A model generated the notes under the pieces. It was not told the origin of the DNA, searched no databases, and saw only the letters and a list, made by a program, of their open reading frames with translations. This document shows, in pieces, positions 14,345 to 23,596 of a stretch of 64,000 nucleotides of DNA. Each line of letters starts with the position of its first letter. Positions within the stretch are counted from its first letter, which is position 1. The position numbers were made by a program, and so were the translations under genes. Source of the DNA: Thermococcus sp. P6 (GTDB lineage Archaea > Methanobacteriota_B > Thermococci > Thermococcales > Thermococcaceae); assembly GCF_002214525.1 (NCBI RefSeq), contig NZ_CP015104.1:868001-932000 (forward strand), in the 5' to 3' direction.

Positions 14345-16231
14345 TTATAACAAAACACTAGGATCGTTCGAAGGTTTGCCCTTTACATCTCCTTTCTTAA
14401 CAGTTTGAATTTCATATATCTTTCGTTTTATGAAGGGAATCTTGAAAGATGAAACAGAGAATTTCGTGATACCAGATTCCAGTAATTTCGCTATAGCATC
14501 TTCTCTCCCTGCCAGTTCTCCACAGACGCTAACTGGCAGATTGAAGTTTTTAGCTTTTTCGGCTATAGTAGTAATAATCTCAAATATTATCTCATGCTCG
14601 TCTTGGTAATATCTGGATACTAAAGGATTGTTCCTATCTGCTGCAAAGATATATTGCGTTAGATCATTTGTGCCTATACTCACGAAGTCGATATATGGGG
14701 CAATCTTATCAATGAGCCACATTATTGAAGGCACCTCTATCATAATGCCCAGTTTGAAGGATCCTATTTTTTCTCCTTCAGTCAAAAGTTCTTCTTTTAT
14801 CTCTTGGATAATCCCGAGCAGTTCTTTGATGTCTTCAGGCAGAGTTACCATAGGAATTAAAACTGAGAGATTACCATAGGTCGATGCTCTGAAGAATGCT
14901 CTCAACTGGGTTTTTAAAATCTCTTTGTGCCTTAGGAGTAAACGGATCCCCCTTAATCCTAAAAATGGGTTTTCTTCATCATCTCCCGACAGGTATTCAA
15001 GTTTCTTGTCCCCTCCAATATCCAATAATCTAATGACAACTTCTTCAGGGTAAAATGTTTCTAAAGCTTTCTTATAAACTAAATATTGCTCCTCTTCAGA
15101 GGGAGGATTGTCTCGCCCAACGAATAGGAATTCTGTCCTAAAGAGGCCAATTCCGTCTGCTCCTTTCCTTTTGGCAATCTCTATTTCTTGGGGCACACCA
15201 ATATTTGCCATCACTTTTATGCCGTTAAACTTGAGCCTGCCATATTTTTCTATTTCCTCTTTTTCTTTTGTGTATCTTCTTATTACCTTTTCAAATTCTC
15301 TAACATTCGCGTTATCGGGATCTATAACGATCTTACCGAGTACCGCATCAACAAAAACCGTTTTTCCTTCATACTTCGAGAGATCAGGAAGCTGAATTAT
15401 GTACGGGATTTCAAAGGCGCGAGCTAGAATAGCGGCGTGAGTGGTATGGGAGCCGGAGGTAGAAAGGAAAGCTTTGACGCCAAAAATGCTCAACTTTATG
15501 ATATCTGAGGGAAAGAACTCTTCACTATACACCACACTATTGTTTAGATCATCAAGTCTCTCAGCAGACTCAAGAAGAAGATTTCTAAATAGGTCTTTAA
15601 TATCGTCAACTCTCTGTTGTATAAGAGGATTATTGGTATTCAACAATAAGGAGATTATTTCATCGCGGATATGTTCGTAGTCTCCAATCTTTATTCTCCC
15701 ATCCACGCTTGCATCTTTCAGTTTTTTCCAGAGAAACGGATCCTCAAGAAGGAGCTGATGAACCTGTGAAATTTCCCGCACTTCTCTTGGCAATGAGGGA
15801 TCACTTATAATTTTGTTCAACTCGGAAGAGAGAGTTTTTGCGGCAAGTTTGATATCTTTAAGGTTGATAAACTGTCTTTCTGTTGTTTTTTTTCTGTTTA
15901 GTACTCTAAGAGTCCCCAGCCCGTAGCCTTCAGATACTATATTGCTCCTTGGGATTTGGATTACTTTATTTTTTGTCTTTCCATTTAGGATTCCCTCCAC
16001 AATCTCGATAACTTTTTCAGCGTCTTCTCCGCTTACGATAACCTCAACTTCAGCGCCGGGGTTGACACCTAAGCTCAAGATGTTTAAGATGCTCTTTGCA
16101 TTCACCTTCATGCCGTTATATATAATATAAACCTCACTGGAAACTCCCAAAAGAGCTTTAACTAGCTCAGACGCTGGACGGGCGTGAAGTCCTTCGGGGT
16201 TTTTGACAACGACTTTTCTTTTAATCTCCAT
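14345..16231 (-). CDS. Fused HPr-Enzyme I phosphotransferase protein of the PTS
   Basis: Carries phosphate from phosphoenolpyruvate to the sugar-specific EII proteins. Residues 1-88 are an HPr domain with the phospho-acceptor in EGLHARPA (His16); residues ~95-610 are Enzyme I. The latter has the phosphohistidine segment GSHTTHAAILARAF (His265), the PEP-barrel motifs GADGIGLFRTEFLF, IRLLDIGGDKK, FLGLRGIRLLL and IGTNDLTQYIFAADR, and the catalytic-Cys region VSVCGELAGRE. Bacteria usually encode HPr and EI separately, so the fusion is unusual. An AGGAGGGG ribosome site precedes the ATG. It is the last gene of the fructose operon; base composition is clearly more AT-rich than the flanking core genes. 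Confidence 0.95.
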   Translation of the reverse strand: MEIKRKVVVKNPEGLHARPASELVKALLGVSSEVYIIYNGMKVNAKSILNILSLGVNPGAEVEVIVSGEDAEKVIEIVEGILNGKTKNKVIQIPRSNIVSEGYGLGTLRVLNRKKTTERQFINLKDIKLAAKTLSSELNKIISDPSLPREVREISQVHQLLLEDPFLWKKLKDASVDGRIKIGDYEHIRDEIISLLLNTNNPLIQQRVDDIKDLFRNLLLESAERLDDLNNSVVYSEEFFPSDIIKLSIFGVKAFLSTSGSHTTHAAILARAFEIPYIIQLPDLSKYEGKTVFVDAVLGKIVIDPDNANVREFEKVIRRYTKEKEEIEKYGRLKFNGIKVMANIGVPQEIEIAKRKGADGIGLFRTEFLFVGRDNPPSEEEQYLVYKKALETFYPEEVVIRLLDIGGDKKLEYLSGDDEENPFLGLRGIRLLLRHKEILKTQLRAFFRASTYGNLSVLIPMVTLPEDIKELLGIIQEIKEELLTEGEKIGSFKLGIMIEVPSIMWLIDKIAPYIDFVSIGTNDLTQYIFAADRNNPLVSRYYQDEHEIIFEIITTIAEKAKNFNLPVSVCGELAGREDAIAKLLESGITKFSVSSFKIPFIKRKIYEIQTVKKGDVKGKPSNDPSVLL

Positions 16232-16276
16232 TTTATCCCCTCCTGCGACACAGAAAAGAAAAAAATTAAAAAATTA
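16232..16276 (-). terminator. Oligo-T stretch between the EIIBC and HPr-EI genes
   Basis: Downstream of the EIIBC stop, the coding strand has several runs of T (16253-16276 on the map is A-rich) before the AGGAGGGG ribosome site. Archaeal termination is often at oligo-T, so it may lower HPr-EI expression. This is inference. Confidence 0.35.
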
Positions 16277-17707
16277 TCAAGCGACCGTTTCCCATTTACG
16301 TGTGTACCTTTTCACGGCGATAACCACCAGTGCTGTGATTATTGTTCCAATTGTTATCACACCTAAGTAAGTAAGTGGATGATTGACGACGTTTGGTAGA
16401 ATTATTGCAAATATCCCCCCATGAGGCGCCCTCAGTTCGAGATTTAGTGCCATGGAGAGTGCCCCAGTAATTGCCGATCCTACCATTATCGATGGAATTA
16501 TTCTGAACGGGTCTGCTGCGGCGAATGGAATCGCACCTTCTGTAATGAAAGATATTCCCAAAATCCATGCGGCCCTTCCTGCCTCAATTTCCTCTTCTGT
16601 AAACAGGTGTTTCTTCAGGGTTGTAGCGAGTGCAAGACCGAGAGGAGGTGTCATACCCGCCGCCATAACTGCTGCCATTGGTGTGTAGATTCCTTCCCCA
16701 AGAAGACCAACCGCAAATGTGTAGGCTGCTTTGTTAACGGGACCGCCCATATCAAAAGCCATCATGGCTCCAAGTATCAATCCAAAGGTTATGGCGCCCG
16801 CAGTACTTACAGTGGAGAGCCAGTTTCTTAGGCCCTCTTCAATACCTGCTATTGGGTTGCCTATTATGTATATCATTAAACTCCCCACGACAAATACTGA
16901 TGTTAGTGGAATTACGAAGATTGTGTAAATTCCACTTAAAAGCTCAGGAACTTTTACTTTTTTCAGGTATTCTACAAAATATCCCGCTATATACCCCGCC
17001 ACGATACCTCCAAGAAATCCTGCACCCATGTCTACTGCTAAAAAGCCACCAACCATACCTGGGGCAAGGCCTGGCTTATCTGCAATAGAGTACGCTATGT
17101 ATCCTGCGAGCACTGGAACAAACAATTTAAATGCTGCTCCTCCACCCATTTTCATGAGCGCCCAAGCTAGTGTTCCTTCCTGCTCAAATGCGTGGATACC
17201 AAAAGCGAACGAGAGTGCTATCAACACGCCCCCCGCGACGACGAAGGGTATCATAAAGGAAACTCCTGTTAGTAAATGTTTGTATGCACCACTTACCGCG
17301 TTTACTGGGATTATGTCACTACTCTTTCCGCTCTTTTCAGGTTTTTTTGTGGGTTGCTCTTTTCTGCGGGCGGACTCTTTCTTTGCAAGCTCACTAGCCC
17401 TCAGCAGGACTTCTTTTGCGTTCTTTATAGCTTCTTGGAGGGGAACTTCCACTATTGGCTTACCTCTAAACCTAGAGAGATCTACCTTCGTTGCGGCAGC
17501 TACTACCACAGCATCTGCCTCTTCAATGTCCTTCTCTGAAAGTTGATTTTCGGCCCCTTTTGCTCCTTGGGTCTCAACTTTTATTTCAAGACCCAATTCC
17601 CTAGCGGCTTTCTCTAAAGCCTCTGCTGCCATATATGTGTGGGCTATTCCAGTTGGGCACGCCGTAGTGGCCACAATTTTTATTTTTCGATTTTCTTCGT
17701 CCGGCAT
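16277..17707 (-). CDS. PTS fructose-specific EIIBC component
   Basis: Membrane permease that imports fructose and phosphorylates it at C1. Residues 1-105 are an EIIB domain with the phosphocysteine in TACPTGIAHTYMAAE (Cys17). A charged linker (about 106-135, rich in Lys/Glu/Pro) leads to an EIIC domain with about nine hydrophobic helices, including the conserved GGPVNKAAYTF and ITEGAIPFAAADPFRI. It sits between EIIA and HPr-EI in the operon; the intergenic gap to EIIA is 41 bases and contains a small inverted repeat (GGAT...ATCC, 17732-17745). AT-rich composition and bacterial-like sequence indicate transfer from Bacteria. Confidence 0.95.
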   Translation of the reverse strand: MPDEENRKIKIVATTACPTGIAHTYMAAEALEKAARELGLEIKVETQGAKGAENQLSEKDIEEADAVVVAAATKVDLSRFRGKPIVEVPLQEAIKNAKEVLLRASELAKKESARRKEQPTKKPEKSGKSSDIIPVNAVSGAYKHLLTGVSFMIPFVVAGGVLIALSFAFGIHAFEQEGTLAWALMKMGGGAAFKLFVPVLAGYIAYSIADKPGLAPGMVGGFLAVDMGAGFLGGIVAGYIAGYFVEYLKKVKVPELLSGIYTIFVIPLTSVFVVGSLMIYIIGNPIAGIEEGLRNWLSTVSTAGAITFGLILGAMMAFDMGGPVNKAAYTFAVGLLGEGIYTPMAAVMAAGMTPPLGLALATTLKKHLFTEEEIEAGRAAWILGISFITEGAIPFAAADPFRIIPSIMVGSAITGALSMALNLELRAPHGGIFAIILPNVVNHPLTYLGVITIGTIITALVVIAVKRYTRKWETVA

Positions 17708-17748
17708 CTTTTAACACCTCCCTAACATTTTTGGATAAATAAATCCGC

Positions 17749-18210
17749 TTATCTTTCAATATTCTTGCTCAAAGTCTCCACAATCTCGTGTGGTGTTTTT
17801 GCCCGCATCAGAGCTTCTCTAAACTCTTCATGAACAAGACTCCTAGAGAGAGAACTCAACATTTTTAGGTGAAGATCTTGAGCATTCTCAGGAACCGCTA
17901 TCAAGAACACCAAGTGCACAGGCTTACCGTCTATGGCCTCAAAATCAACACCTCTACTTGATTTTCCAATGGCCACTGCAGGTGATACCACAGCAGAGCT
18001 TTTAGCGTGAGGTATTGCAATACCAAATCCGACTCCTGTTGACGTTATCTGTTCCCTTGCCCATACATCCTCAAAGAACCGCTCCTTGTCCTTGACGACT
18101 TTATGTTTGTAAAGTATATCAACGAGCTCCAGTATAACTTCACTCTTATTTCTTCCCTTTAGGTCCATTTTGATTAGCTCTTCCCGGACTAGCCCTTTAA
18201 CCTCACTCAT
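17749..18210 (-). CDS. PTS fructose-specific EIIA component
   Basis: Accepts phosphate from HPr and hands it to EIIB. The 153-residue single-domain protein shows the EIIA-fructose/mannitol active site GFGIAIPHAKS (His68), preceded by REQITSTG and followed by VHLVFLIAVPENAQDLHLKML. ATG 18210 overlaps the fruK stop as ATGA and is preceded by GAGGTGG within the fruK end, so translation is coupled. A GTG three codons further upstream is less likely. Same operon as fruK and EIIBC. Confidence 0.95.
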   Translation of the reverse strand: MSEVKGLVREELIKMDLKGRNKSEVILELVDILYKHKVVKDKERFFEDVWAREQITSTGVGFGIAIPHAKSSAVVSPAVAIGKSSRGVDFEAIDGKPVHLVFLIAVPENAQDLHLKMLSSLSRSLVHEEFREALMRAKTPHEIVETLSKNIER

Positions 18211-19148
18211 ACCGGCCACCTCTGTAACTTGACCCTTGGAAGTAATTCCTTAAAAACTCTCAAATCAATTGGACCCGTATCCTCCGATTTTAATGAGGCA
18301 GAAGCAGTGGCTGTTGCAATTTTAATAGCATCATCAATATCAAGACTTTTTTCTAACGCATAAGCAAAACCCGCTACCAATGCATCCCCCGCACCTACGG
18401 AGGTTTTTACATCTTCACTATGAAGTGGCTCAGCGTAATATGCTCCGTCCGAAGTTAGAGTAATGCTTCCTCGCGCTCCCATGGAAACACATATGATGTT
18501 TATCCTATATTCATTCATCAACTCTTTAGCCGCGGCTACTATTTCATCGAGTTCTTCAAAATTTCTTCCAAGTAACTGTGAAAATTCCTGGAGATTAGGT
18601 TTTATCATAAACGGGGAAGCTTTGATTCCATGTTTTAACGCATCTCCACTCGCATCAAGGATGACTTTTGTATTCTCTCGAATCTCCGCGATAATCTCCT
18701 TGTAAGCAGAAACTGGCAATCCCTGAGGGAGAGAACCAGATAATACTGTGACATCTGCTCGTTTAGAATATCGAGAAATCTTTTGTTTCACGACTTCGAA
18801 GAGCTGTTTGCTAACTTCAGGCCCCCATTCATTAATCTCAGTAAGCATTCCAGTATTAGTTTCTATCAATTTTATGTTCTCCCTAACGTCCACTTGGGGA
18901 ATAACTACAAAATCATGTTTTATTTTCAAAGATGAAAGATAGTCTTCAAACACAAACCTGCGTTTCTCTCCAATAAACCCCACAACTGTAACTTCTGCTC
19001 CAAGTGCTCGAGCATTTTTGGCTACATTAATGCCTTTCCCTCCAATGCTCATGGCGACATTCACGGCTCTATTAGTTGCTCCAAGTTTTAGTTCCTCAAC
19101 AAAAAATGTCTTGTCAATAGCAGGATTCATTGCAACAGAAAGTATCAT
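18207..19148 (-). CDS. fruK: 1-phosphofructokinase
   Basis: Phosphorylates fructose 1-phosphate, the product of the PTS, to fructose 1,6-bisphosphate, which enters glycolysis. The 313-residue PfkB-family protein begins MILSVAMNPAIDKTFFVEEL and shows SIGGKGINVAKNARALG near residue 40, LSGSLPQGLP, and the C-terminal signature TSVGAGDALVAGF with its catalytic Asp. ATG 19148 overlaps the deoR stop as ATGA with GGAGGTG upstream; 20 further in-frame codons are not family sequence. Archaea of this order normally use ADP-dependent sugar kinases, so a bacterial-type ATP enzyme fits acquisition with the PTS. Confidence 0.94.
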   Translation of the reverse strand: MILSVAMNPAIDKTFFVEELKLGATNRAVNVAMSIGGKGINVAKNARALGAEVTVVGFIGEKRRFVFEDYLSSLKIKHDFVVIPQVDVRENIKLIETNTGMLTEINEWGPEVSKQLFEVVKQKISRYSKRADVTVLSGSLPQGLPVSAYKEIIAEIRENTKVILDASGDALKHGIKASPFMIKPNLQEFSQLLGRNFEELDEIVAAAKELMNEYRINIICVSMGARGSITLTSDGAYYAEPLHSEDVKTSVGAGDALVAGFAYALEKSLDIDDAIKIATATASASLKSEDTGPIDLRVFKELLPRVKLQRWPV

Positions 19149-19915
19149 CTGCTGGCACCTCCCGGTGTTATAAGTTGAATTTTCCGTTCTTTGAACGCCA
19201 TGATCCACTCAGGATCAATTCCAGAGTCTGTTATTATCGCAGAAATCTCCTTTGGTTCTGCAATTTTCACAAAAGCAGTTCTGCCAAACTTCGAATGGTC
19301 TGCCACAATATATGATGTCGAGGCAATTTTAATCATTATCCTCTTAATTTCAGCTTCCATCAAGTTTGTGGTTGTTATGGCGTCTAATGTAATACCATTG
19401 GCACCAACGAAAGCCATATCTGCATTTAGCTTAGACAAGGTATTCTCTGCTATTGGGCCCACCAAAGCAAGTGTCTCTTTTTTAAGAGTTCCTCCTATAA
19501 GTATCACTTCCATGTTTCTATGCATAGAAAGTTCCCTTACTATAAGTGGAGAATTCGTGATTACCGTAATGTTTTTATCTTCAAGGTTTCTGGCTATCTC
19601 CAATGTAGTCGTTCCAGAATCCAAGACTATAATGTCCCCATCCTTCACGAGATTATTAACTAATTTCCCAATTTCCTCTTTGGCAGATTTCTCAAGAGAC
19701 TCTTTCTCAAAGAACGTGGGTTCATAAGAAAGATATTCTATTGCGATAGCCCCCCCATGAGTCCGAATTATCTGTCCTTTACTTTCTAAAAATACCAAAT
19801 CTCTCCTTATTGTGGGTTTGGAAACATTGAGTATTTTAGATAACTCAGAAACAGTCATACTCTTGTGCCTCCGTAGAAGCTCCAAGATTTTGGCTCTTCG
19901 CTCTTCTGCAAACAT
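19145..19915 (-). CDS. DeoR-family transcriptional regulator of the fructose operon
   Basis: A 256-residue repressor-type protein: N-terminal winged helix (ERRAKILELLRRHKSMTVSE, then SKPTIRRDLVFLESKG) and a DeoR C-terminal sensor domain with the sugar-phosphate-binding motif DSGTTTLEIARNL. In bacteria such FruR proteins sense fructose phosphates and repress fru operons. ATG 19915 is three bases after GGTGAGG. It is the first gene of the PTS operon, so autoregulation through the inverted repeats just upstream is likely (inference). Confidence 0.92.
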   Translation of the reverse strand: MFAEERRAKILELLRRHKSMTVSELSKILNVSKPTIRRDLVFLESKGQIIRTHGGAIAIEYLSYEPTFFEKESLEKSAKEEIGKLVNNLVKDGDIIVLDSGTTTLEIARNLEDKNITVITNSPLIVRELSMHRNMEVILIGGTLKKETLALVGPIAENTLSKLNADMAFVGANGITLDAITTTNLMEAEIKRIMIKIASTSYIVADHSKFGRTAFVKIAEPKEISAIITDSGIDPEWIMAFKERKIQLITPGGASR

Positions 19916-19935
19916 GGTCCTCACCTAATCGATCT

Positions 19936-19961: not shown

Positions 19962-20126
19962 TTTATGACTGATATTGATCCTATAGTATATAAGTGTTAC
20001 GGTACTGAATAATCATAACTATCAGATAACTGTGGTATTACCCGGATCTATTTAGCAACATCTCTGGGAGAATAAGTCCCGTAGAATTACATCAAGAGAC
20101 AATTTTAGCAGTACTAAAAGGAAAAT

Positions 20127-20217
20127 ATTTATACTGATAACCTATTACGTTCATAGGTGATTATATTAATCTGATTAGATGGTAATGATTAGGCGGCTGG
20201 TTGGGGTGTGGTTGATA
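20127..20217 (+). pseudogene. Dead copy of the promoter and first codons of the 21395 gene
   Basis: This stretch matches 21334-21427 over its TATA box (AAATATTTATAC), spacer (ACCTATTAC), ribosome site and first codons; the last 25 bases (20193-20217 versus 21403-21427) are identical. Here the second codon region reads ATGATTAG, so translation would stop at once. The copy lies upstream of the heliorhodopsin gene and is in the same orientation as the intact gene. The rest of 19962-20472 holds no gene; only a short open piece (VFKDVVEKFRKGVKG near 20231) is visible. Confidence 0.8.
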
Positions 20218-20416
20218 ATAGTTTGTGGGGGTTTTCAAAGATGTTGTAGAGAAATTTAGAAAGGGGGTAAAAGGTTGAAGATGATCTGCCCTGTTCTTTA
20301 CTTCTTTACACGGAGAAGGGGTATGAGAAGGTAGGGCGGATAATTCCTTAAATTACATGTTGAACTGTTGGGAGAACGGTGGCGACAGAGTCATGAAGAA
20401 GATGTCGAAACGAGGA

Positions 20417-20430
20417 AAATTTATATATTC
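20417..20430 (+). promoter_or_regulatory. TATA box of the heliorhodopsin gene
   Basis: GGAAAATTTATATATTCC contains a strong archaeal BRE/TATA-like element. It implies a transcript start near 20448, 25 bases before ATG 20473. Confidence 0.6.
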
Positions 20431-20472
20431 CTAAGGGAAAATACCGACCATAGAAATTGGGTGGAAGTAAAA

Positions 20473-21219
20473 ATGGAGGATGAAAAATTTCAACAACTTA
20501 AAAAGTTGAACCTGTTTGCAGCGGCTTTCCATTTGATTCAGGGTGTACTGATACTGCTTCTTTCAACGGGGTTCACGATTACCGTAACGAGGGGTTACCT
20601 GAGGTATGATGAGGCAACGAGAAGCCTGGTGAACGTGACAGAGAACCTCTTTCAGGTGAATCTCGCCTACCTGATAGCTCTCTTTCCCTTTTTAACCTTT
20701 TTCGCCCACTTTATGGTATCCACGCTGCTGTTCGAGAGGTACAAGAAGAACCTCTCAAAGGGGATCAACCCCTACAGGTGGGCTGAATACTCCGTAACGG
20801 CTTCGATAATGATCGTGATAATAGCCATGCTCGTCGGAATCTCGGACATAGGCGCCCTTATAATGATGTTCTTCCTGAACGTGGCCATGATATTCTTCGG
20901 CTACGACATGGAGCACTTGAACCAGTACACAGAGAAGGTGAACTGGACCCCCTTTATATTTGGATCAATCACCGGTCTGATCCCATGGGTGGTCATATTC
21001 ATGACCATGCTGAGGTCCCACCCGCCCAGCTTCGTAATATGGATATTCGTTAGCATAGCGGTCTTATTCAACCTCTTCCCAATAAACATGGTCCTGCAGT
21101 ACAAAAAGGTGGGGAAGTGGGCGGATTACCTGTACGGGGAAAAGGTTTACATCATCCTGAGCCTGGTATCCAAAACCCTCCTCGTATGGCAGGTCTTCGC
21201 CGGGACCCTTCGGCCTTAA
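20473..21219 (+). CDS. Heliorhodopsin-like seven-helix retinal protein
   Basis: A 248-residue membrane protein with about seven hydrophobic helices. The family's diagnostic residues are present: in helix 1 HLIQG (His20, Gln23); in helix 2 FFAHF (His79); in helix 3 RWAEYSVTASIM with the counterion-type Glu105; and in helix 7 SLVSKTLLVWQVFAGTL, with Ser230 four residues before the retinal-binding-type Lys234. These match H23, Q26, H80, E107, S237 and K241 of heliorhodopsin 48C12 as I remember them. ATG 20473 follows a TATA box by about 45 bases; upstream open codons are not family-like. Heliorhodopsins bind retinal, are oriented opposite to type-1 rhodopsins and have no settled function. No retinal synthesis gene is in the window. 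Confidence 0.9.
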   Translation: MEDEKFQQLKKLNLFAAAFHLIQGVLILLLSTGFTITVTRGYLRYDEATRSLVNVTENLFQVNLAYLIALFPFLTFFAHFMVSTLLFERYKKNLSKGINPYRWAEYSVTASIMIVIIAMLVGISDIGALIMMFFLNVAMIFFGYDMEHLNQYTEKVNWTPFIFGSITGLIPWVVIFMTMLRSHPPSFVIWIFVSIAVLFNLFPINMVLQYKKVGKWADYLYGEKVYIILSLVSKTLLVWQVFAGTLRP

Positions 21220-21250: not shown

Positions 21251-21394
21251 TATTTTGGAAACTTCAACCTATAGATTGTATTTCTCTGCTAAAAACTTGT
21301 TACCTCTGGAATTTTATGTGGATTACTGAAACGAAAAATATTTATACGGCACCTATTACTCTCGTGAAGGATTATGTTAATCGGAAGGGTGGTA

Positions 21395-23596
21395 ATGATG
21401 GAGCGGCTGGTTGGGGTGTGGTTGATAGCACTTCTGGCCGGAGCTGTTGTGGGTACGCCCATTTTCACCCCTGTGGTGGGGGCGAGTGGCACATCCACAG
21501 GAACCACCAGCGCGTACACTGAGTTCTGGGATATCTTAAACAGGGAAGCAGAGCTTGTTGTCGGAGTCGAAATCGGCAACCTCGGTCTTGCTCCAGATCT
21601 GGTTCAGAATTCCCGCCTCGGTGCAGAGAACGCGGCAAACCTTTCGGCCTTAACCTGGCAGGCTTTGGAAGAACTCAAATCATCGGGAGTTAAGACTTAT
21701 TATTCTGCCGAAGAACTGCGTGAAATGTCCCTGAACATCAGCGAGAACGGCCTGCCTCCGGAGACCGTTAATGCTCTTAAAGAGCAGGGGTGGACTGATG
21801 AACAAATTCGTGCTCTGGAGGATTATATTGTTCAGAACGGTGAAAACATTACGGAAGGTTTTAACATGACCTCCTTTTTGGAGGACCTCTCAACGAGCTT
21901 CATTAGAGTCGGCTTCAAGTATAACCATTACGAATCCTGGGCGCTGGAGATGTGGAAGTGGACCCGGCCCATTGAAGCCCCGACAACGAACAGTGAGGAT
22001 AGGTTAATTAACCCCCTCATGGCAGTTCGGTGGGTGTCTTTTTACAGGGAGTACTCCCAGCAGGACTATGAAAACATGGAAACTGCCATTAAAAGTTTGA
22101 GAGATTATGTTTATCTCTTAATGTTGGGAAATTCATCCGGAGAAAACAGGATGCTTCTCTACAGTCCCGGGACTGACCGGTTGACATCATTAACAGGCAA
22201 GGTTACAAACGTGGAACAAACTGAGAACGGCGGCCTAATGTTCACGGTGACCCTTACCCGTATAACAGGTACCGAAGAAGTGGTCAACACCACAACCTAC
22301 TACTGGCCCGATGCACTTAAGGCCTACGAGCTCATTGGGAACGTTTACACCCTCGTGAAGGCCAGAAATTATGGGAATGGTAACGCTGAGATTGATAGAA
22401 TGCTCAACCAGAAAGTTGCGGAGTTAAAGAACGCCCTTAAAGTGGTTAGGGTCTCAAGTGAAGTCACGACCAGACCGATAAAAGATGGTTCCTCTTCGGA
22501 CTCAGGCTCAACAAAGATCGCGGACGAAATTGAAAGGCTTGCCCTCGATCCTCAGAGTTCCTGGGGCATATTCCGGGTTGATGACGTTGAAGTTGAGGTT
22601 ACCCACAAAGGCACCGCCTATGGAATGTATAAGTTTGCGATGTATAGGGTCGTAGTTCACTACCATGTTGAGAACAATGCAGTATCCAATATTAGCGTAA
22701 AGTTCAAAGGGGCCTACTTGGAGGATTCAAAATCCATGGCCTTTCTCTCTCCCGGAGAGGGTGGCATAATAACAAGCGGGGAGAGCGAGTTCATTTCTGG
22801 GAGCGGTGAAATTCAGGTTATGGGAGTGGTCAAAATAACCTACACCTCAAGCCCGGGGCCCGTACCGACGAATAATTCAACGGGAAGAAAACAGGAGATG
22901 GAGATCATCAGGGAATACTCCGCCACCATAAAACTGGAGGATGCAATTGACCCAAACAAGATATCCGTTAGTATTCCGGGTGAAGTCGAGATTAATGAGG
23001 GTGATAGTGTGCCCTTCACGGTGATTGTTTACAACTATAATCGTAAGCCTGTAACCGGAACATGCACCCTCGTGGCAACTTACCCGGAGACGGGCACTCA
23101 GGTGGGTACCGTGCGGTTAAACAAGGAAATCGGCGTGGGAGCGTCTGGATATGTTGTCGAACGAATAGGAAATGTTAGCTATTCCAGTCCGGGAACCTTC
23201 GGGTACAGTGGTAAGTGCGACTTTGGAAATGGTATCTCCAAAAGCTTCAGCGGAAGAGTTAAGGTGGATAGTCGTACCGTCAGGATAGCTGGAGTTGATG
23301 TCTCGCCCGAAACACCGGTCTCAGGAGACATCGTGAATTTTGACGTGATGATTAAGAACCCATTTTCCGTGTCGAAGAATGTGACTGTAAAGCTTTTCAT
23401 CGACGGTAACGAAAAGTCGAGGGAGAACCTATGGCTTGGTGGAGGGAGCTCAGAGCTGGTGACTTTGACGTGGACTGCTCAGGCCGGGGGTCACGGGTGG
23501 CGCATTGAGGTGCTGGAGGATGGTAAGCTGTGGGATTCGAAGATCGGAACCATAAGCGTCTCACGGTATAGTACTCACAGCTTTAGGTTGCTTTGA
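21395..23596 (+). CDS. Large secreted protein with C-terminal beta-sandwich repeats
   Basis: A 733-residue protein with an N-terminal signal peptide (MMERLVGVWLIALLAGAVVG). The first half is mostly helical with many Asn-Ser/Thr sequons. From about residue 510 there are two beta-sandwich-like modules with KISVSIPGEVEINEGDSVPF and VDVSPETPVSGDIVNFDV, the pattern of CARDB or similar adhesion-type domains. No C-terminal anchor is visible, so it may be released or held by partners. The start follows GGGTGG; ATG 21398 is equally possible. A TATA box is at about 21338-21348. It is tandem with the heliorhodopsin and membrane-protein genes. Function unknown. Confidence 0.85.
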   Translation: MMERLVGVWLIALLAGAVVGTPIFTPVVGASGTSTGTTSAYTEFWDILNREAELVVGVEIGNLGLAPDLVQNSRLGAENAANLSALTWQALEELKSSGVKTYYSAEELREMSLNISENGLPPETVNALKEQGWTDEQIRALEDYIVQNGENITEGFNMTSFLEDLSTSFIRVGFKYNHYESWALEMWKWTRPIEAPTTNSEDRLINPLMAVRWVSFYREYSQQDYENMETAIKSLRDYVYLLMLGNSSGENRMLLYSPGTDRLTSLTGKVTNVEQTENGGLMFTVTLTRITGTEEVVNTTTYYWPDALKAYELIGNVYTLVKARNYGNGNAEIDRMLNQKVAELKNALKVVRVSSEVTTRPIKDGSSSDSGSTKIADEIERLALDPQSSWGIFRVDDVEVEVTHKGTAYGMYKFAMYRVVVHYHVENNAVSNISVKFKGAYLEDSKSMAFLSPGEGGIITSGESEFISGSGEIQVMGVVKITYTSSPGPVPTNNSTGRKQEMEIIREYSATIKLEDAIDPNKISVSIPGEVEINEGDSVPFTVIVYNYNRKPVTGTCTLVATYPETGTQVGTVRLNKEIGVGASGYVVERIGNVSYSSPGTFGYSGKCDFGNGISKSFSGRVKVDSRTVRIAGVDVSPETPVSGDIVNFDVMIKNPFSVSKNVTVKLFIDGNEKSRENLWLGGGSSELVTLTWTAQAGGHGWRIEVLEDGKLWDSKIGTISVSRYSTHSFRLL

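Follow-up and report, generated by a model that had tools for sequence, protein, structure and literature searches.

A full-length heliorhodopsin gene in a Thermococcus genome and its patchy distribution among the Thermococcaceae

The stretch of DNA analyzed here, the window, comprises 64,000 nucleotides of the genome of Thermococcus sp. P6 and carries a heliorhodopsin (HeR) gene, which is surrounded by the following features (positions are those of the window):

14345–19924, minus strand: complete PTS operon of the fructose type (HPr-EI fusion, EIIBC, EIIA, 1-phosphofructokinase and DeoR regulator), divergent from and upstream of HeR.
20118–20222, plus strand: truncated and degenerate duplicate of the start of the gene at 21374, comprising its promoter and first codons, upstream of HeR.
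20412–20428, plus strand: BRE/TATA box GAGGAAAATTTATATAT of the HeR promoter, recognized by eye rather than by a formal scan.
20459–20464, plus strand: Shine-Dalgarno-like GGGTGG, 8 nt 5′ of the HeR ATG.
20473–21219, plus strand: HeR gene, encoding 248 amino acids with seven transmembrane helices, the retinal lysine K234 and the counterion E105.
21374–23596, plus strand: secreted or surface protein of 740 amino acids, the downstream neighbor of HeR, with no match in Pfam or NCBIfam.

The HeR open reading frame starts with the ATG at 20473, and its stop codon ends at 21219. This start is favored because it is preceded by the TATA box TTTATATAT at 20420–20428 and by the GGGTGG motif, the BRE/TATA element lying about 45 bp 5′ of the ATG as judged by eye; an in-frame TTG at 20368 is merely a mechanical extension of the frame and was rejected as the start. 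TATA-like boxes, again recognized by eye, are also found directly 5′ of the HeR ATG in the relatives (loci L008–L013), and the window gene stands alone with its own promoter.

The gene encodes a full-length, true heliorhodopsin. Its product matches Pfam PF18761 with E = 3.3e-95 and 318.5 bits (cut-off 26.7), residues 9–246 covering the whole 242-position profile, and the NCBIfam equivalog NF038020, “heliorhodopsin HeR,” with 320.9 bits (cut-off 100); PF18761 matched none of 14 control genomes in the same type of search. The initial annotation, which had read this frame as a heliorhodopsin and had proposed a profile search, a structural superposition and a genome-wide scan for carotenoid genes as checks, is thus confirmed on the identity of the gene by both the profiles and the fold. 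In fact, an AlphaFold2 (AF2) model built from 48 related sequences (pLDDT 92.6, pTM 0.89) retrieves in Foldseek the structure of TaHeR (6is6) first, with a TM score of 0.93 at 2.5 Å, and 48C12 second, whereas type-1 rhodopsins score far lower (TM 0.50–0.64); the same two proteins are the closest solved relatives by sequence, TaHeR (E = 2.9e-74) again preceding 48C12. The model shows the heliorhodopsin fold with two predicted β strands, 35–46 and 51–63, in the A–B loop, and a positive-inside count of lysines and arginines (five in the B–C loop and three in the F–G loop) leans toward the inverted topology.

The residues that the initial annotation had singled out as diagnostic are all at the positions given there and align with their counterparts in 48C12: H20 with H23, Q23 with Q26, H79 with H80, E105 with E107, S230 with S237 and K234 with K241. 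The protein therefore has the retinal-binding lysine in helix 7 and the glutamate counterion in helix 3, together with the proton-path histidine pair H20/H79, Q23 and S230; furthermore, E105, S230 and K234 are invariant in all of the 89 HeRs aligned. Two serines of 48C12, S76 and S111, form hydrogen bonds with the counterion in that protein. At their positions the window HeR has threonines (T75 and T109) in place of serines that are nearly invariant among the 89 sequences, so that the hydroxyl groups are kept. All members of Thermococcales clade A have these threonines, among them the copy of genome G080, which matches the retinal-binding TcHeR. In 48C12 the proton moves from the Schiff base through E107 and H80 to H23, and every residue of this path is retained in the window protein. 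This bears on a reading in which the protein would be a light-driven ion transporter, either a proton channel or a pump. One viral HeR, V2HeR3, is reported to move protons (PMC9448325), but the window HeR has E105, H79 and H20, the canonical residues that hold the proton in cellular HeRs, and the targets so far reported for cellular HeRs are partner proteins, namely glutamine synthetase, an ABC transporter and photolyase; ion transport is accordingly a very improbable function here.

The initial annotation treated heliorhodopsins as not known from the Thermococcales. That statement is outdated: the HeR of Thermococcus sp. 2319x1 (TcHeR, or NTH) was expressed, purified with retinal and mutated in 2021, and has its absorption maximum at 530 nm (PMC7807009). 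This blue-shifted maximum is set by M205 and S232, and swapping both residues shifted it by 12 nm (PMC7807009). In the window HeR the pocket residue M206 and S233, which adjoins the retinal lysine, are the counterparts of this pair and are common to the Thermococcales sisters among the 89 aligned HeRs; from these two residues, the protein should absorb near 530 nm. As judged from its sequence, it belongs to a Thermococcales-specific, blue-shifted subclade. The HeR of G080 (1,961,221 bp) has F44–A47, M145, M205 and S232 exactly as published for TcHeR, and since all the published residues are present, this genome is probably that of strain 2319x1 or of a similar strain.

No obvious partner, such as a histidine kinase, was seen among the open reading frames beside the window HeR. 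The 740-residue surface protein downstream was considered as a partner and rejected, as its family occurs in 53 of the 94 Thermococcaceae genomes with no association with HeR. The degenerate copy of the start of this gene aligns (20118–20222) against 21338–21430, with a 38-nt core (20180–20217) that matches 21390–21427 at 92%; because it sits upstream of HeR, it suggests a duplication or insertion at the HeR site, of which it is the probable scar.

On the other side, the DeoR gene of the PTS operon and HeR lie head-to-head, about 550 bp apart. This arrangement, and the occurrence of sugar genes next to HeRs elsewhere, could be taken to mean that HeR and the PTS/DeoR genes form a unit through which light controls fructose uptake. 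The cassette, however, is present in three genomes that lack HeR, among them G015, where its flanking genes are different, and is missing from the six genomes that carry HeR besides that of the window; full-length relatives of its EIIBC were found in only three other genomes among the 94 Thermococcaceae, at least one of them in a different context. Furthermore, GC at third codon positions (GC3) is 32–39% in the PTS operon versus 69% in HeR (core genes 73–81%), which indicates that the two probably arrived separately. The operon with its low GC3 is probably a mobile PTS cassette of hyperthermophilic archaea, and since it occurs independently of HeR it was rejected as the partner, a joint light-controlled unit being highly unlikely.

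The relatives offer a different neighborhood. Genomes G068, G069 and G080 share a gene order of OpuC-type transporter, SDR dehydrogenase, HeR and Rieske oxygenase, and the same Rieske gene comes after HeR in G072; this gene occurs in exactly four of the 94 Thermococcaceae genomes, all of them HeR carriers, and always adjoins HeR:

L010, 8622–9587: Rieske oxygenase (VanA-like) beside HeR.
L011, 8801–9763: Rieske oxygenase (VanA-like) beside HeR.
L008, 10717–11673: Rieske oxygenase (VanA-like) beside HeR.
L009, 9519–9865: Rieske oxygenase (VanA-like) beside HeR, decayed.

Rieske oxygenases use O2 and are unexpected in strict anaerobes. By eye, the protein carries the 2Fe-2S motif (CxH..CxxH) and a D..H....H iron site, and in G080 the gene is broken into remnants next to an intact HeR. 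The adjacency may reflect one transferred block. No Rieske oxygenase was matched in the window's genome, which accordingly lacks the HeR–Rieske cassette, and a description of this pairing was not found in the titles and abstracts of the literature searched. A tie of the enzyme to retinal chemistry was considered; among curated families the protein is most similar to a methylsterol monooxygenase, through a match that is weak and covers only part of the length. A Rieske oxygenase (L065, 16221–17144), 43% identical to that of the Thermococcales, also lies about 5.4 kb from the HeR of a Clostridia metagenome-assembled genome. The HeR locus of G072 contains in addition a repeat array (L008, 13754–17473), with the recurring readings FPFSQSLIAT and VSILPESYCN on one strand, which is probably a CRISPR array.

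Genes for peroxiredoxin, rubrerythrin or ferritin are found in all five of the other long HeR loci versus two of 40 control regions, comparing HeR-centered 20-kb stretches with evenly spaced control stretches; these families were chosen after the loci had been seen, and one transferred block is common to three of the five, so that the count amounts to about three independent cases. A role in oxidative stress has been proposed for HeRs in general (Bulzu et al., PMC8612252). The window HeR has none of these genes within 10 kb. Photolyase, the partner of the Trichococcus HeR, was rejected as a candidate because it is missing from all of the 94 Thermococcaceae genomes, whether or not they carry HeR, and the family thus shows no other sign of light adaptation.

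HeR is present in seven of the 94 Thermococcaceae genomes, in two clades of the tree, and six more were found among the other sampled families of the class. In a tree of 89 sequences, five Thermococcales HeRs, including that of the window, form one clade (support 100/100) beside a Methanomassiliicoccales sequence (99/89), while those of G078 and G081 adjoin a mainly Bacillota group that also includes Mycoplasmatota and Thermotogota. Two origins of HeR in the family are therefore likely, although short of proof, since a single clade of the seven sequences is not rejected by an AU test (p = 0.357); in a second tree, with starred branches, two changes are no longer forced. Transfer within the family is clearer. 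The HeR genes of G069 and G080 are 99.3% identical in DNA versus 68.9% for the genes of the DNA polymerase II large subunit, and conversely G080 and G081 share 96.8% identity in the polymerase protein and 49% in HeR. Sequence comparison thus clearly points to horizontal transfer of HeR between genera of the family; no donor of the window copy is visible.

Such a history raises the question of whether HeR could be an acquired passenger gene without a current function in this strain, as its patchy spread, its movement between genera, the broken duplicate that it adjoins and the lack of a partner beside it might suggest. Against this, dN/dS between the window HeR and its relatives is low (0.065–0.09, with dS near saturation), which indicates purifying selection; the promoter and ribosome-binding site are intact, the GC3 is near that of core genes, and in G080 HeR remained intact while the Rieske gene decayed. 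A passenger is therefore an improbable reading, and the window HeR is probably functional.

The initial annotation saw no retinal or carotenoid gene in the window; this holds, and the same absence applies genome-wide and in the other six HeR carriers of the family. Phytoene synthase (PF00494) was matched in none of the seven HeR genomes versus seven of 14 controls, and de novo synthesis of C40 carotenoids by the known route is consequently not expected in the carriers. An RPE65-type cleavage enzyme was likewise missing from the HeR genomes and matched in two controls, while the silence of the Blh-type BCD family carries little weight on its own because the same search matched no control either. 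The paradoxical combination of a light sensor with missing retinal genes is not confined to the Thermococcales: phytoene synthase is present in three of 20 other HeR-bearing genomes examined and absent from 17, mostly of anaerobes and CPR bacteria. HeRs occur, for example, in Methanomassiliicoccales (L070, L071, L087, L090 and L014), including RumEn M2, none with phytoene synthase. RumEn M2, going by its name, is presumably a rumen enrichment and thus from a dark gut habitat.

These absences are the main argument for a non-photic role, in which the protein, either empty or with a different hydrophobic ligand, would act in the dark as regulator or scaffold of a partner in the membrane or the cytoplasm: no carotenoid or retinal route was detected in the seven carriers, most other carriers examined, rumen Methanomassiliicoccales among them, have no phytoene synthase, and the family has no photolyase. 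A purely dark role, however, should let the retinal lysine vary in some HeRs, whereas K234, E105 and S230 are invariant, and in TcHeR, a close relative, retinal gives rise to a visible pigment whose tuning depends on the residues of the pocket (PMC7807009); we regard a non-photic role as rather unlikely. In a broader formulation, the HeRs of these anaerobes, in which none of the retinal-synthesis genes searched for was found, would use a chromophore that the cells do not make by the known route. They would have either a ligand-free or other-ligand function in the dark or, in the relatives bearing Rieske and SDR genes, an apocarotenoid or a lipid aldehyde on which these neighboring enzymes have acted; we consider this unlikely.

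The explanation we prefer, to which we give roughly an even chance, is that the window HeR is functional and serves as a green-light sensor with scavenged retinal, signaling rather than pumping. The apoprotein would sit in the membrane with its N-terminus inside and pick up all-trans retinal that phototrophs are assumed to release in hot habitats reached by sunlight, either shallow or on land. Bound on K234, the retinal would absorb green light near 530 nm, and on illumination E105 would accept the proton of the Schiff base and hand it on to the H79/H20 pair; the slow photocycle would alter the cytoplasmic face and pass a signal to a partner protein. As no partner is encoded beside the window HeR, it would be encoded at a distance or be of a generic kind. 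For the group, the most probable output would be a response to light plus oxygen, that is, photo-oxidative stress: the stress-gene neighbors in five of five loci and the enzyme of an O2-using class beside HeR in four genomes speak for it, and the lack of a stress gene within 10 kb of the window HeR and of photolyase in the family speak against it. Overall, the interpretation given in the initial annotation is supported in part.

The function of heliorhodopsins is still debated. Some Thermococcales are amenable to genetic manipulation, and the HeRs of the order are patchy in distribution, exchanged horizontally and hosted by cells apparently unable to make retinal; a patchy HeR in otherwise retinal-free cells therefore offers a clean one-gene test of function, with or without retinal and with or without light. 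The neighborhoods with Rieske and oxidative-stress genes provide a concrete hypothesis for it, a response to light plus oxygen. The interest of the system thus lies in hosts devoid of retinal genes, in the transfer between genera and in the HeR–Rieske neighborhood of the relatives.

In comparison with known systems, the window HeR adds one more protein to an established family, in an order from which HeR was already known; the inter-genus transfer, the distribution in seven of 94 genomes, the lack of retinal genes in all seven carriers, the stress-gene counts and the HeR–Rieske neighborhood are new here. The nearest characterized protein is TcHeR, of the same order and subclade: the window protein shares about 78% identity with the G080 copy, and its M146, M206 and S233 correspond to M145, M205 and S232. 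It differs in the A–B loop (YDEA rather than FDEA) and in its genomic context, without the SDR/Rieske/OpuC block. The HeR of the Methanomassiliicoccales archaeon UBA147 (L014), from another order and class, is 60% identical, the nearest non-Thermococcales relative in our collection and sister to the window clade (99/89), and has serine and alanine where the Thermococcales clade has threonine and serine. TaHeR, from the Thermoplasmatales archaeon SG8-52-1, is 50% identical, superposes with a TM score of 0.93, shares the diagnostic residues and groups with other Thermoplasmatota in the tree; at the positions of S76, S111 and A240 of 48C12 the window protein differs from it by T75 and T109 (serine to threonine) and S233 (alanine to serine). 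Finally, 48C12 (6su3) has the same fold and the same set of Schiff base, counterion and histidines at 40% identity, but its A–B loop reads GPPG and its pocket is of the red type, Q148/Q213/A240, where that of the window HeR is M/M/S.
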